The notes below the pieces were generated by a model. That model had not been told where the DNA came from and did not search any database. It saw only the letters and a program-made list of their open reading frames with translations. From a bacterium (GTDB taxonomy: Bacteria; Patescibacteriota; Minisyncoccia; Minisyncoccales; UBA10102): a stretch of DNA of 39,665 nt. The stretch covers positions 1-39,665 of the forward strand of contig JAUYMI010000014.1 of NCBI GenBank assembly GCA_030698665.1, read 5' to 3'. The position numbers and the translations under genes were made by a program. Below are positions 29,563-32,595 of this stretch, piece after piece; position 1 is the first letter of the stretch, and each line of letters opens with the position of its first letter.

Positions 29563-29678
29563 AAGACGCAGTACTTTCTGTATCATTATCTCGACCTTTG
29601 GTCAATCGTTTCTTTGTCATGCCATTTACAAGGTCGAACCATGATAGTATACTATAAAAACAATATACCTATTCTATC

Positions 29679-30341
29679 ATGAAGTTAAAAGAAAGGAGAA
29701 AAGCTATTCGGCTAAGACGTTTAGGCAAGAGCTACGGTGAGATACTTAAGTATACCCCGGTCTCGAAAGGCACCTTGAGTTTGTGGTTACGCGATATTGA
29801 AGTGAATCCTAAGTTTCTCGCAGAGCTTCGTGGAAGAGAGATATCACGATATGCGGGTGCGAAGGCAAGACAGAGACAAAGAATTGAAAAAACAGAGCTT
29901 ATCATTAGGGATGCAAAAAAAGAGGTATGGTCCCTCTATCGCGACCCTTTATTTCTAGCGGGTTTGATGCTATATTGGGCGGAGGGAGATAAATCGGACG
30001 AAAACGAACAGATAAAGTTCACCAACTCTGATCCTGAGATGATTAGAGTAATGATGTGTTGGTTTCGTAAGGTTTGCGTAGTGCCCGAGGAAAAGTTTAG
30101 AATCTCTCTCCATGTCCACGAACTTCATTGTCGTAGTGATATGGAGGATTACTGGTCAAGGGTGACCAAAGTCCCCCTCACGCAGTTTCATAAGACCTAT
30201 ATTAAGCAAACGTCGTTGCGGTATCGGAAGAACCATCTGTATAATGGGACCTGTGCAATTCGGGTATCAAACAGAGATCTTTTTAGAAGGATGAAGGGGT
30301 GGCGTCTCGCCATCGTTGAGAGTGAGTCGTTAAGGAAGTGA
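29679..30341 (+). CDS. HTH + LAGLIDADG-like putative homing endonuclease (family A, copy 1)
   Basis: HTH LRRLGKSYGEILKYTPVSKGTLSLWLRD; FLAGLMLYWAEGDKS...FTNSDPEMI; DYWSRVTKVPLTQFHKTYIK; between tRNA genes. Confidence 0.7.
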   Translation: MKLKERRKAIRLRRLGKSYGEILKYTPVSKGTLSLWLRDIEVNPKFLAELRGREISRYAGAKARQRQRIEKTELIIRDAKKEVWSLYRDPLFLAGLMLYWAEGDKSDENEQIKFTNSDPEMIRVMMCWFRKVCVVPEEKFRISLHVHELHCRSDMEDYWSRVTKVPLTQFHKTYIKQTSLRYRKNHLYNGTCAIRVSNRDLFRRMKGWRLAIVESESLRK

Positions 30342-30357
30342 GTGAATGAATATGTAT

Positions 30358-30434
30358 GCCCCCGTGGCTCAATTGGATAGAGCAACTCCCTTCTAAGGAG
30401 TAGGTTGCAGGTTCGATTCCTGCCGGGGGTACCA
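30358..30434 (+). tRNA. tRNA-Arg(TCT), CCA encoded
   Basis: Stem ACTCC/GGAGT, loop CTTCTAA, T arm GCAGGTTCGATTCCTGC. Confidence 0.93.
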
Positions 30435-30444
30435 GGTTCCTCAT

Positions 30445-30516
30445 GGGGGCATTGGTGTAGTGGCAGCACAAGAGTTTGTGGAACTCTCGGGAGGGGTTCA
30501 AATCCCCTATGCCCCC
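30445..30516 (+). tRNA. tRNA-His(GTG), encoded G-1 and C73
   Basis: Stem AGAGT/ACTCT, loop TTGTGGA, acceptor GGGGCAT/ATGCCCC with G at -1. Confidence 0.93.
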
Positions 30517-30522
30517 CAGCAA

Positions 30523-30553
30523 AACAAAAACCCGGCTTTGCAGCTGGGCTTTT
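30523..30553. terminator. Bidirectional terminator-like hairpin
   Basis: aaaaacccggc-tttgca-gctgggctttt between tRNA-His (+) and minus-strand small ORF. Confidence 0.6.
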
Positions 30554-30564
30554 GTCAAAAGAGA

Positions 30565-30705
30565 TTATGTCACCTCGTCTACGTCGGTGTCGTCATCGTT
30601 CGCGTCATCCTCTTTCTTTTCCGTGTCGCTGTCTTCTCCTGTGTCGTCTTCCGTCTCGTCCTCCTCCTGATTGAAGATAGTAGCCTTGAGTTCTTCTGTG
30701 ATCAT
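30565..30705 (-). CDS. Putative 46-aa very acidic small protein
   Basis: MITEELKATIFNQEEDETEDDTGEDSDTEKKEDDANDDDTDVDEVT*; near-consensus promoter upstream, terminator downstream; no SD close to this ATG. Confidence 0.45.
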   Translation of the reverse strand: MITEELKATIFNQEEDETEDDTGEDSDTEKKEDDANDDDTDVDEVT

Positions 30706-30758
30706 TTTGTGTTTGCATGAGGTCTTGAATCTCCTGCGACCTTTTTTGATACAAGCAC

Positions 30759-30786
30759 ATTATAGGGAGTCAAAAAGGTCTGTCAA
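30759..30786 (-). promoter_or_regulatory. Sigma70-type promoter on minus strand
   Basis: Reverse complement TTGACA - 16 nt - TATAAT. Confidence 0.75.
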
Positions 30787-30854
30787 TACTCGCAATTCAC
30801 AAGAAGAAGATGGATTGCGGAGGCCGAAAGTTCATGGTAGTATTCTCGTGTGCT

Positions 30855-30926
30855 GTCCTCGTAGTTCAACGGATAGAACAAGACACTCCTAACGTCTAAA
30901 TGCAGGTTCGATTCCTGCCGGGGACA
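30855..30926 (+). tRNA. tRNA-Arg(CCT), CCA not encoded
   Basis: Loop CTCCTAA; stem AGACA/CGTCT with A-C mismatch at 31-39; acceptor GTCCTCG/CGGGGAC. Confidence 0.85.
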
Positions 30927-30965
30927 CAGAAATGAAGGAAGTGTTGCACATTATAGGAGGCATAA

Positions 30966-31697
30966 ATGCAAAGGACGTCCCAGGTGTCAAATACCCGGGT
31001 GGACCGTCGGGCCATGCTTCTTGCATGGACGGTCGGATTTCTCATAGGAGTTCTGCTCTGGACGTTTCGTCTTGTGGGGCTTGTGAAAGTAGTGGGATCC
31101 GCCCCCTGGAAGTTTCGCGCAGATCCGGGACAAGGGCTTCTCGTTATCTATCGGCATCCCTCCATGAAGGAGGTGCTCGCGGTACCCTCGCTCTTCTTCC
31201 CCTGGTACTTGCTGAATCGGGACCGGATTCCCTTTCAGACACCTGATCTGGGCAACTACTACGCTCCATGGTGGATGGCTCCGCTCCGATCAGTCCTCAT
31301 TCCCGTAGAGAGAGGGAGCCCGGTGAGGGAGGCAAGATCGTTCGTCCGCATGCGTTCTCACCTGAGGAGCGGAGGAACTCTCGCTATTGCTCCAGAAGGC
31401 GGACGTACCTGGAAGGGGGAGGAGTTCAAGATGCTCACCCGGGAGGGAGAAATCATCATCGTCCCCGCCCTTGAAGGAGCCCGGCCGAACCTGAAAAAAC
31501 CCATTCTCCGGCGCTTCAAGTCCGGGGTCGGGAAGCTGGCGGCTGACGGAGTTCCCGTTCTTCCAATATGGGTGGAGCCCAGGTGGAAGTACGGACTCCG
31601 CATCGTCGTCGGGGAGCCAGTCACTTTTGATGTTCTCCCGGGGCGGGAGATTACAGAGCACCTGGAGGACATCATGCTTCAGCTCGCAGAGAGGTAA
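30966..31697 (+). CDS. PlsC-like 1-acyl-sn-glycerol-3-phosphate acyltransferase family protein
   Basis: SD taggagg 5 nt before ATG; RHPSMKEV (HX4E in place of HX4D), APEGGRTWKG motif. Confidence 0.72.
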   Translation: MQRTSQVSNTRVDRRAMLLAWTVGFLIGVLLWTFRLVGLVKVVGSAPWKFRADPGQGLLVIYRHPSMKEVLAVPSLFFPWYLLNRDRIPFQTPDLGNYYAPWWMAPLRSVLIPVERGSPVREARSFVRMRSHLRSGGTLAIAPEGGRTWKGEEFKMLTREGEIIIVPALEGARPNLKKPILRRFKSGVGKLAADGVPVLPIWVEPRWKYGLRIVVGEPVTFDVLPGREITEHLEDIMLQLAER

Positions 31698-31713
31698 CTT
31701 TCTGCGCTTTCTT

Positions 31714-31786
31714 GACCTCATAGCTCAATGGATAGAGTTCCTTTTGAAAATAAGGGAGGACGCAGGTCCGATTCCTGCCGAGGTCC
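31714..31786 (+). pseudogene. Degenerate tRNA-like sequence (Arg-family-like body)
   Basis: GACCTCA TA GCTC AATGGATA GAGT T CCTTT TGAAAAT AAGGG AGGAC GCAGG TCCGATT CCTGC CGAGGTC C: A7-C66 mismatch, no U33 in a 7-nt loop, C55, C73. Confidence 0.65.
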
Positions 31787-31794
31787 AAGACCGA

Positions 31795-31823
31795 TTGCAC
31801 GTTGAAAAGCTCTGTGGTACAAT
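31795..31823 (+). promoter_or_regulatory. Promoter positioned for leaderless transcription of the 31830 ORF
   Basis: TTGCAC - 17 nt - TACAAT, 6 nt before ATG. Confidence 0.55.
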
Positions 31824-31829
31824 TCTACA

Positions 31830-32513
31830 ATGTATTCACAGTACTATAACCTTAAGGCTCGGGCTACGGCTTTGCGAGAGAAGGGCAAGACGTATGGGGA
31901 AATCCGGAAAGTCCTCGGGAAGCCAATCTCCAAAAGCACACTCTCCTATTGGTGCAGAAACACTCCTCTTCCTTCCCATTACGAGGAACGTATTGCTAAG
32001 ATAGTTGGGCAGGCAAGTAGCAGAGGGAGGAAGACCGCTTTAGCGCTGAACCGAATACGATTTGAAGAGCGAATAGAAGAAATTAGATCAAGGGCACATC
32101 AACTTTCTTCTTTCTTCAAAGACGAACGTACTGCAAAAGTTGCTCTCGCGATGCTGTACTTAGGGGAAGGAGCAAAGTGGAAGAGACATAGAGGGTTGCA
32201 CCTTGGTAGCTCAGACCCCGATATTGTGCAGATATACATTAGATTACTCGACAGATGTTATGGAATTCCCAGAGAAAAGCTTTCTGCGCGAATCTCGTAC
32301 CGCGTAGATCAAGATATCCAAGCGCTTACCAGATTTTGGTCTCGAGTAACCGGAATACCGAAATCAAGATTCTATAAGACGAAACCAGATTCCAGAACAA
32401 AGGGTAAAAAAACATTAATAAAAGATTACAAAGGAGTGTGCAGTATTACTTGCGCCGGGACGGATGTGCAGCTTGAACTGGATTTTATTGCGAGAATGTT
32501 TTTGGAAGATTAG
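31830..32513 (+). CDS. HTH + LAGLIDADG-like putative homing endonuclease (family A, copy 2)
   Basis: LREKGKTYGEIRKVLGKPISKSTLSYWCRN; ALAMLYLGEGAKW...LGSSDPDIV; RFWSRVTGIPKSRFYKT; alignable with 29679-30341. Confidence 0.7.
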   Translation: MYSQYYNLKARATALREKGKTYGEIRKVLGKPISKSTLSYWCRNTPLPSHYEERIAKIVGQASSRGRKTALALNRIRFEERIEEIRSRAHQLSSFFKDERTAKVALAMLYLGEGAKWKRHRGLHLGSSDPDIVQIYIRLLDRCYGIPREKLSARISYRVDQDIQALTRFWSRVTGIPKSRFYKTKPDSRTKGKKTLIKDYKGVCSITCAGTDVQLELDFIARMFLED

Positions 32514-32518
32514 ATTCC

Positions 32519-32589
32519 GGGCCCGTGGTATAACGGTAATATATCTCCATGGCATGGAGAAGTCCGGGGTTCGATTCCCCGCGGGTCCA
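32519..32589 (+). tRNA. tRNA-Ala(GGC), CCA not encoded
   Basis: Stem TCTCC/GGAGA, loop ATGGCAT, G3-U70. Confidence 0.92.
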
Positions 32590-32595
32590 CAGAGG

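Follow-up and report, generated by a model that had tools for sequence, protein, structure and literature searches.

Helix-turn-helix proteins with a single LAGLIDADG-like motif at the 5' ends of tRNA genes in Patescibacteria: a probable family of free-standing, tRNA-isotype-specific homing endonucleases

Why do two similar genes stand directly in front of two different tRNA genes on one bacterial contig? The question is raised by contig JAUYMI010000014.1 (assembly GCA_030698665.1), whose 39,665 nucleotides, here called the window, belong to a Patescibacteriota genome of 572 kb in 29 contigs. The two genes, P0001 (29679..30341, + strand) and P0002 (31830..32513, + strand), are intact open reading frames (ORFs) of 220 and 227 amino acids, each encoding a helix-turn-helix (HTH) and a single LAGLIDADG-like motif. 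We consider it probable that they belong to a family of free-standing, HTH-bearing, single-motif LAGLIDADG-like homing endonucleases with tRNA-isotype-specific lineages. The two proteins align with 32% identity over about 200 residues (E = 1e-21), in agreement with a preliminary description of the locus, which had called them paralogues similar along their length. That description also had them inserted in two tRNA spacers. Both do lie in such spacers, P0001 between tRNA-Pro(tgg) on the - strand and tRNA-Arg(tct), and P0002 between a degenerate Arg-like tRNA and tRNA-Ala(ggc). What it overlooked is that each gene abuts, in the same orientation, the 5' end of the downstream tRNA gene, and that unrelated homing-endonuclease families share this niche. 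P0001 is followed after 16 bp by tRNA-Arg(tct) (30358..30434, + strand), and P0002 after 5 bp by tRNA-Ala(ggc) (32519..32590, + strand). At least two more full copies in the same genome precede tRNA-Met and tRNA-Val(gac), and the Val(gac) copy ends inside the tRNA.

The same arrangement recurs across the family. Ninety-one of 116 distinct members end between -110 and +60 bp from the 5' end of a same-strand tRNA gene, and only 1 of 116 does so at an opposite-strand tRNA. The base rate for ending so near a tRNA, family members included, is 39 of 1864 ORFs (2.1%) in three genomes that were fetched whole. In these three genomes, all seven full hits of the HTH family and all three of a LAGLIDADG_3 family lie at a tRNA 5' end, one of these tRNAs being an intron candidate. 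Nine exceptions lie ahead of a tRNA that contains a group I intron or a candidate for one (eight tRNA-Phe and one tRNA-Thr, most with Rfam group I intron matches); ARAGORN had missed these tRNAs because of the intron. The commonest offset places a TAG stop codon at tRNA positions 8-10, and some frames run deeper into the tRNA, whose translated sequence then forms the tail of some proteins. Two doubtful ORFs apart, ordinary genes end 7-60 bp before the tRNA, and only endonuclease-type genes enter it. The family ORFs are free-standing genes, located outside introns and inteins, in intergenic positions beside a conserved gene. At L049, L052, and L012, two family ORFs stand in tandem ahead of a single tRNA or are separated by an intron-bearing tRNA, which suggests repeated invasion of one site.

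The tRNA next door is also reflected in the phylogeny. On a quickly built tree of 114 members, with support from Shimodaira-Hasegawa-like approximate likelihood ratio tests (SH-aLRT) only, the neighboring tRNA isotype changes 17 times, or 25 times if the unlabelled members form a group. Shuffled isotype labels gave a mean of 82.7 changes, and none of 200 shuffles was as low as the observed value. Host family changes 84 times on the same tree, indicating that the protein tree tracks isotype, not host family, and that the lineages keep their site across hosts. The members at tRNA-Gln(ttg), Val(gac), Ile(tat), and Arg(tct) each form one well-supported clade across many host families. P0001 falls within the Arg(tct) clade and P0002 within the Ala(ggc) group. 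Their placement in different isotype clades led us to reject a local duplication of the two; the tree supports the independent arrival that had been suggested for them earlier. Comparing the tRNA isotypes beside the homologues, an analysis proposed in the preliminary description, thus gave a strong result, namely that the lineages are isotype specific. In a second collection, all 19 Patescibacteria-type hits that reach at least 48% identity to the Arg(tct) clade (L281-L299, identities of 49-62%) precede tRNA-Arg(tct), although these are only partly independent because several of the genomes had already been sampled.

Two further genes in the window are of endonuclease type and take up comparable positions. 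P0003 (34963..35616, + strand), a LAGLIDADG_3 endonuclease-like ORF of a different family, occupies the same niche between tRNA-Cys(gca) and tRNA-Leu(taa). Its relatives (L114-L143) occur in 47 of 188 genomes, and those examined lie mostly directly 5' of a same-strand tRNA-Asp, Cys, Leu, or Phe gene. P0004 (22689..23561, + strand), located between tRNA-Pro(cgg) and tRNA-Ala(cgc), encodes a zinc-finger protein with a "homing endonuclease associated repeat" (HNH_repeat), and its stop codon falls at positions 8-10 of the tRNA-Ala(cgc) gene. The occurrence of unrelated endonuclease families in one position is the strongest contextual argument for homing. In another genome, an HNH-type zinc-finger ORF recognized by eye (G347:C2:167185-167829) ends 7 bp before a same-strand tRNA-Ser(tga), a further nuclease type in this niche.

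The proteins themselves carry nuclease-type features. Across 114 homologues, the near-invariant positions are G16, S18, W36, Y99, E102, G103, K105, N116, D118, P119, W159, F170, and G190, and the motifs quoted in the preliminary description map to such positions. The central motif, YWxEGxK or xxLYWGEGxK, keeps its glutamate in 113 of 114 members and its lysine in 107 of 114, so that the acidic residue of the AEGDK/GEGAK segment, whose conservation had been singled out for checking, is almost always present. These are the putative catalytic E102 and K105 in P0001, and P0002 likewise keeps the E and K of GEGAK. When a profile of the C-terminal domain from sampled Patescibacteria loci was compared with PDB sequences, I-DmoI was the only hit up to E = 10 (E = 0.0069). 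The profile aligns LYWAEGDK with the second-motif LYVAEGDK of I-DmoI and places E102 on E117 and K105 on K120, which we take to be active-site residues from the published I-DmoI structures. A second C-terminal profile, mostly from other phyla, found I-DmoI again as the best single-stretch hit (E = 0.0032); the top row of that search was a designed repeat protein whose score is a sum of weak repeats. A LAGLIDADG helix motif ending in a putative catalytic acid is thus present, once per chain. The N-terminal HTH is of the HTH_23/Sleeping Beauty/resolvase type. The ratios of nonsynonymous to synonymous substitution rates (dN/dS) of two close pairs were 0.12 and 0.08, indicating purifying selection.

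No family model in Pfam or NCBIfam accounts for these proteins. Neither P0001 nor P0002 passes a cut-off in Pfam or NCBIfam, there was no convincing match in PHROGs, and the identity of the proteins with a known family in these collections was rejected since no model fits. A GIY-YIG nuclease domain was not matched in Pfam or PHROGs. We searched 384 genomes of the class with a profile built from 22 relatives, which matched in 191 of them with one to seven copies each and a patchy distribution even inside one genus. With the lineages each at the front end of one tRNA gene, half of the sampled genomes therefore carry at least one tRNA-linked element. Judged by relatedness in the family searches, with named hits in Parcubacteria-type genomes, the family is located mainly in Patescibacteria. 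Further relatives come from contigs labelled as Omnitrophota, Myxococcota, Planctomycetota, and other groups, where single contigs may be binning errors. Short members of about 110-195 amino acids (L331, L333, L334, and L339-L344), mostly from Omnitrophota, are found near tRNA-Tyr or tRNA-Leu(taa) and apparently lack the HTH; to judge by these sequences, the catalytic-type domain may occur alone. A tblastn search with P0001 found no relatives in sequenced phages. Four viral contigs (L345-L348, 11.7-447 kb) carry genes of the family next to tRNA-Glu or tRNA-Val(tac) and are possible vehicles for transfer of the family.

Occupied and empty alleles of one site are found in close relatives. In genome G004, a 740-bp insert separates tRNA-Ile(tat) from tRNA-Val(gac), and the same spacer measures 12 bp in the same-genus genome G002, 4 bp in G005, and 1-4 bp in three other members of the host family. 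The tRNA-Val(gac) genes of the empty congeners are 94-97% identical to each other but only 68-69% identical to that of the occupied G004, whereas tRNA-Ile and tRNA-Val(tac) are 96-97% identical between G004 and G002. This pattern of divergence is suggestive of co-conversion of tRNA-Val(gac) with the insert. A second such site is at tRNA-Phe, where the ORF and a tRNA intron are both present in G027 and both absent from its congeners G193 and G145. After the upstream gene and ahead of the ORF, the G027 leader (L055) repeats 17 nt of the tRNA-Phe 3' end in inverted orientation, and in G145 tRNA-Phe is inverted relative to the same neighboring gene, a pattern compatible with replacement of the tRNA gene.

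The association with introns extends beyond this pair. A group I intron was present in 8 of 9 tRNA-Phe genes with a family ORF directly 5' and in 9 of 33 without one (p = 0.0014). The ORFs end 6-29 bp 5' of the intron-bearing tRNA, and because all of them are outside the intron, the possibility that they are intron-internal genes was rejected. Small group I introns or candidates were also observed in tRNA-Phe, Thr, Met, and Lys genes (L017, L034, L036, L045, L055, L059, L070, L032, L092, L312, and L313) on Patescibacteria and Myxococcota-labelled contigs, and several of these adjoin family ORFs.

The inserted element consists of a leader of about 45-115 bp and one ORF. Sigma70-like promoters matching at 9 or more of 12 positions were found in 70% of the leaders compared to 20% of shuffles, and their distances to the start codon peak at 6 nt. 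The hexamer TYGAAC is present in 47 of 171 family leaders (27%), compared to 12 of 411 other upstream regions (3%) and 0 of 26 LAGLIDADG_3 leaders; most copies in the family lie 36-45 nt upstream of the start codon. Read on the other strand, the hexamer gives GTTCRA, the core of the tRNA T-loop. It is unlikely to be just a leftover T-arm of a tRNA, because the T-stem-paired position is not conserved. The hexamer is a candidate operator, and the HTH may read the same sequence in the leader and in the T-loop core. In the window, the leader of P0001 has a promoter-like site (TTTACA, 17 bp, TATACT; 29625..29653, + strand) with TCGAAC (29634-29639) within the spacer. The promoter-like site of P0002 (TTGCAC, 17 bp, TACAAT; 31795..31823, + strand) ends 6 nt before the ATG, a layout also present in the relative L014, and P0002 could possibly be expressed from a leaderless transcript. 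The degenerate Arg-like tRNA upstream of P0002 (31714..31786, + strand; 38 bits, 8-nt anticodon loop) lies 43 bp before that gene, and in L014 a tRNA-Arg(cct) is found at the same 43 bp before the ORF. The degenerate copy is a possible pseudogene, perhaps left behind by the arrival of P0002.

How such a gene could spread may be pictured as follows. In the protein, a long linker helix would join the N-terminal HTH to a single LAGLIDADG-like catalytic domain resembling the second motif of I-DmoI (LYWxEGxK). Every lineage would keep to a single tRNA gene, whose sequence often supplies the stop codon of the ORF. In a genome free of the element, the enzyme, presumably a homodimer, would cut within the tRNA gene or at its 5' junction, and repair from a carrier would copy the ORF, at times with the linked tRNA, into the cut site. 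The insertion would destroy the target site, and the single-copy, essential tRNA would stay transcribed because the element is co-directional and has its own promoter. At tRNA-Phe with a small ORF-less group I intron, the enzyme and the intron may home together. Cleavage, the dimer, homing, the cut site, and the role of the HTH are what we infer from comparative evidence; the HTH may supply the specificity, as the preliminary description proposed.

Several results weigh against this reading. None of the Pfam LAGLIDADG models passes its cut-off, only 1 of 110 members gives a weak match (single members reached E = 0.008 and 0.02), and profile comparison with the LAGLIDADG_3 family was weak (E = 0.03 and 0.01). 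The AlphaFold models are confident, with predicted local distance difference test (pLDDT) values of 92.7 and 93.8, and show the order helix, strand, helix, strand, helix, strand, strand, helix. This order is related to that of the standard LAGLIDADG fold but has one more helix and one more strand inserted between its third and last sheet strands. Foldseek searches with both models returned no LAGLIDADG protein among the 50 best PDB hits and no match with E < 0.001; in a viral library, LAGLIDADG and intein proteins had the best template modelling (TM) scores (0.44-0.45), but with E near 1. Because Foldseek gives no significant match, the domain is named LAGLIDADG-like. The HTH and the single LAGLIDADG-like motif originally described are supported, with two profiles hitting I-DmoI, but the LAGLIDADG saddle was not confirmed. 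The loci were, moreover, selected from high-scoring matches. In three Omnitrophota relatives (L300-L302, 48-50% identity to the Arg(tct) clade), the gene instead closely follows the 3' end of tRNA-Arg(cct), and no downstream tRNA was seen, so that the position rule weakens outside Patescibacteria. A Saganbacteria relative (L303) is grouped with them, just 3' of tRNA-Arg(cct) or tRNA-Lys and again with no downstream tRNA seen. A wider test of linked-tRNA divergence in three same-genus genomes showed no significant effect (mean 78.6% vs 81.5%, p = 0.17). General replacement of the linked tRNA was not supported by this result, and co-conversion is therefore suggestive only at the Ile-Val site.

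Other explanations were weighed against the same observations. The proteins could be host regulators or biogenesis factors linked to tRNA, translated from the front portion of a transcript shared with the tRNA and acting on that downstream tRNA through processing, modification, or control of expression, with no cleavage of DNA. A cis-acting partner of this kind would fit the same-strand abutment, the frames running into the tRNA, the isotype lineages, and the purifying selection. We nevertheless regard it as unlikely, since occurrence is patchy (191 of 384 genomes, zero to seven copies), same-genus genomes have empty sites with the tRNA still apparently intact, the protein tree departs from the host tree, unrelated endonuclease families hold the same position, and the catalytic-type E and K are near invariant. 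That last feature also counts against domesticated, nuclease-dead LAGLIDADG-HTH transcription factors that regulate tRNA promoters, because an acid kept in 113 of 114 members and a lysine kept in 107 of 114 are the reverse of what a dead enzyme would show. In principle such factors would resemble WhiA, a host regulator with conserved gene order that combines a LAGLIDADG-like fold of two degenerate repeats with an HTH. The family shares this combination, and TYGAAC in 27% of the leaders suggests DNA binding and autoregulation. The WhiA architecture of a LAGLIDADG-like domain followed by HTH_WhiA was not found, however; the HTH of the family is N-terminal, the opposite domain order, and only 1 of 22 members had a weak HTH_WhiA match (E = 0.04). 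With sporadic presence, and with the ORFs at tRNA 5' ends and not at distant regulated genes, we rate this explanation as quite improbable.

A small site-specific element of the integrase or transposase type, with tRNA genes as attachment sites, would be in keeping with the HTH_23/Sleeping Beauty/resolvase-type HTH and with the common use of tRNA genes for integration. Nevertheless, no integrase, serine recombinase, or DDE domain was found in an element made up of a leader and an ORF, and integrases usually take the 3' ends of tRNA genes, whereas here the 5' end is used. Such an element appears very improbable, even less so favored than a transcription factor, and homing endonucleases are the better account of the family.

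The family departs from the systems it most resembles. I-DmoI, the best and only natural PDB family matched, is an archaeal, intron-encoded monomer from a 23S rRNA intron with two motifs and no HTH, whereas the family proteins have one motif and an HTH and are free-standing at tRNA genes. Among phage genes, segB of T4 is flanked by tRNA-Arg and tRNA-Ile (PMC2988022), and phage segB genes show an enrichment near tRNAs that was reported not to favor particular isotypes (PMC13096335). SegB of phages T4 and T6 and its relatives are thus similar in being free-standing homing endonucleases in tRNA arrays, but they are GIY-YIG enzymes, phage-borne, and without isotype preference, whereas the present family is LAGLIDADG-like, located in bacterial chromosomes, isotype specific, and fixed at the tRNA 5' end. 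In the Candidate Phyla Radiation (CPR), rRNA genes hold single-motif LAGLIDADG proteins, in introns or as insertion sequences, that match Pfam LAGLIDADG_1/2/3, with tRNA unmentioned (PMC11270868). These share the host group and the single motif with our family but differ in their rRNA location and in their Pfam matches. Collaborative homing, in which a free-standing endonuclease acts with an ORF-less group I intron (reviewed in PMC2988022), recalls the family ORF beside tRNA-Phe with a small ORF-less group I intron; here, the target would be a tRNA gene of a bacterial chromosome. In the open-access literature, we found no description of isotype-specific endonuclease genes at the 5' ends of bacterial-chromosome tRNA genes and no account of tRNA-linked LAGLIDADG genes in CPR.

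A broader scenario is possible and is offered tentatively. Patescibacteria and some other small-genome lineages may carry tRNA-gene drives, with one lineage per isotype and unrelated nucleases competing for the 5'-end niche. Homing might swap in horizontally acquired, cleavage-resistant tRNA alleles, so that selfish nucleases shape the tRNA complement, and the HTH might read a T-loop-like sequence both in the targets and in its own promoter. On the homing reading in general, homing targets in cellular chromosomes would include an entire class made up of the single-copy tRNA genes of reduced genomes, and the isotype-addressed enzymes could be ready-made site-specific nucleases for conserved tRNA sequences. 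The family would account for much of the anonymous coding sequence beside CPR tRNA genes and would provide a route for tRNA genes between lineages. It would also make it possible to test how a selfish gene can insert beside an essential RNA gene without breaking it, and it would give a function-like annotation to a family that has no Pfam or NCBIfam model and that half of the genomes sampled from one class carry.

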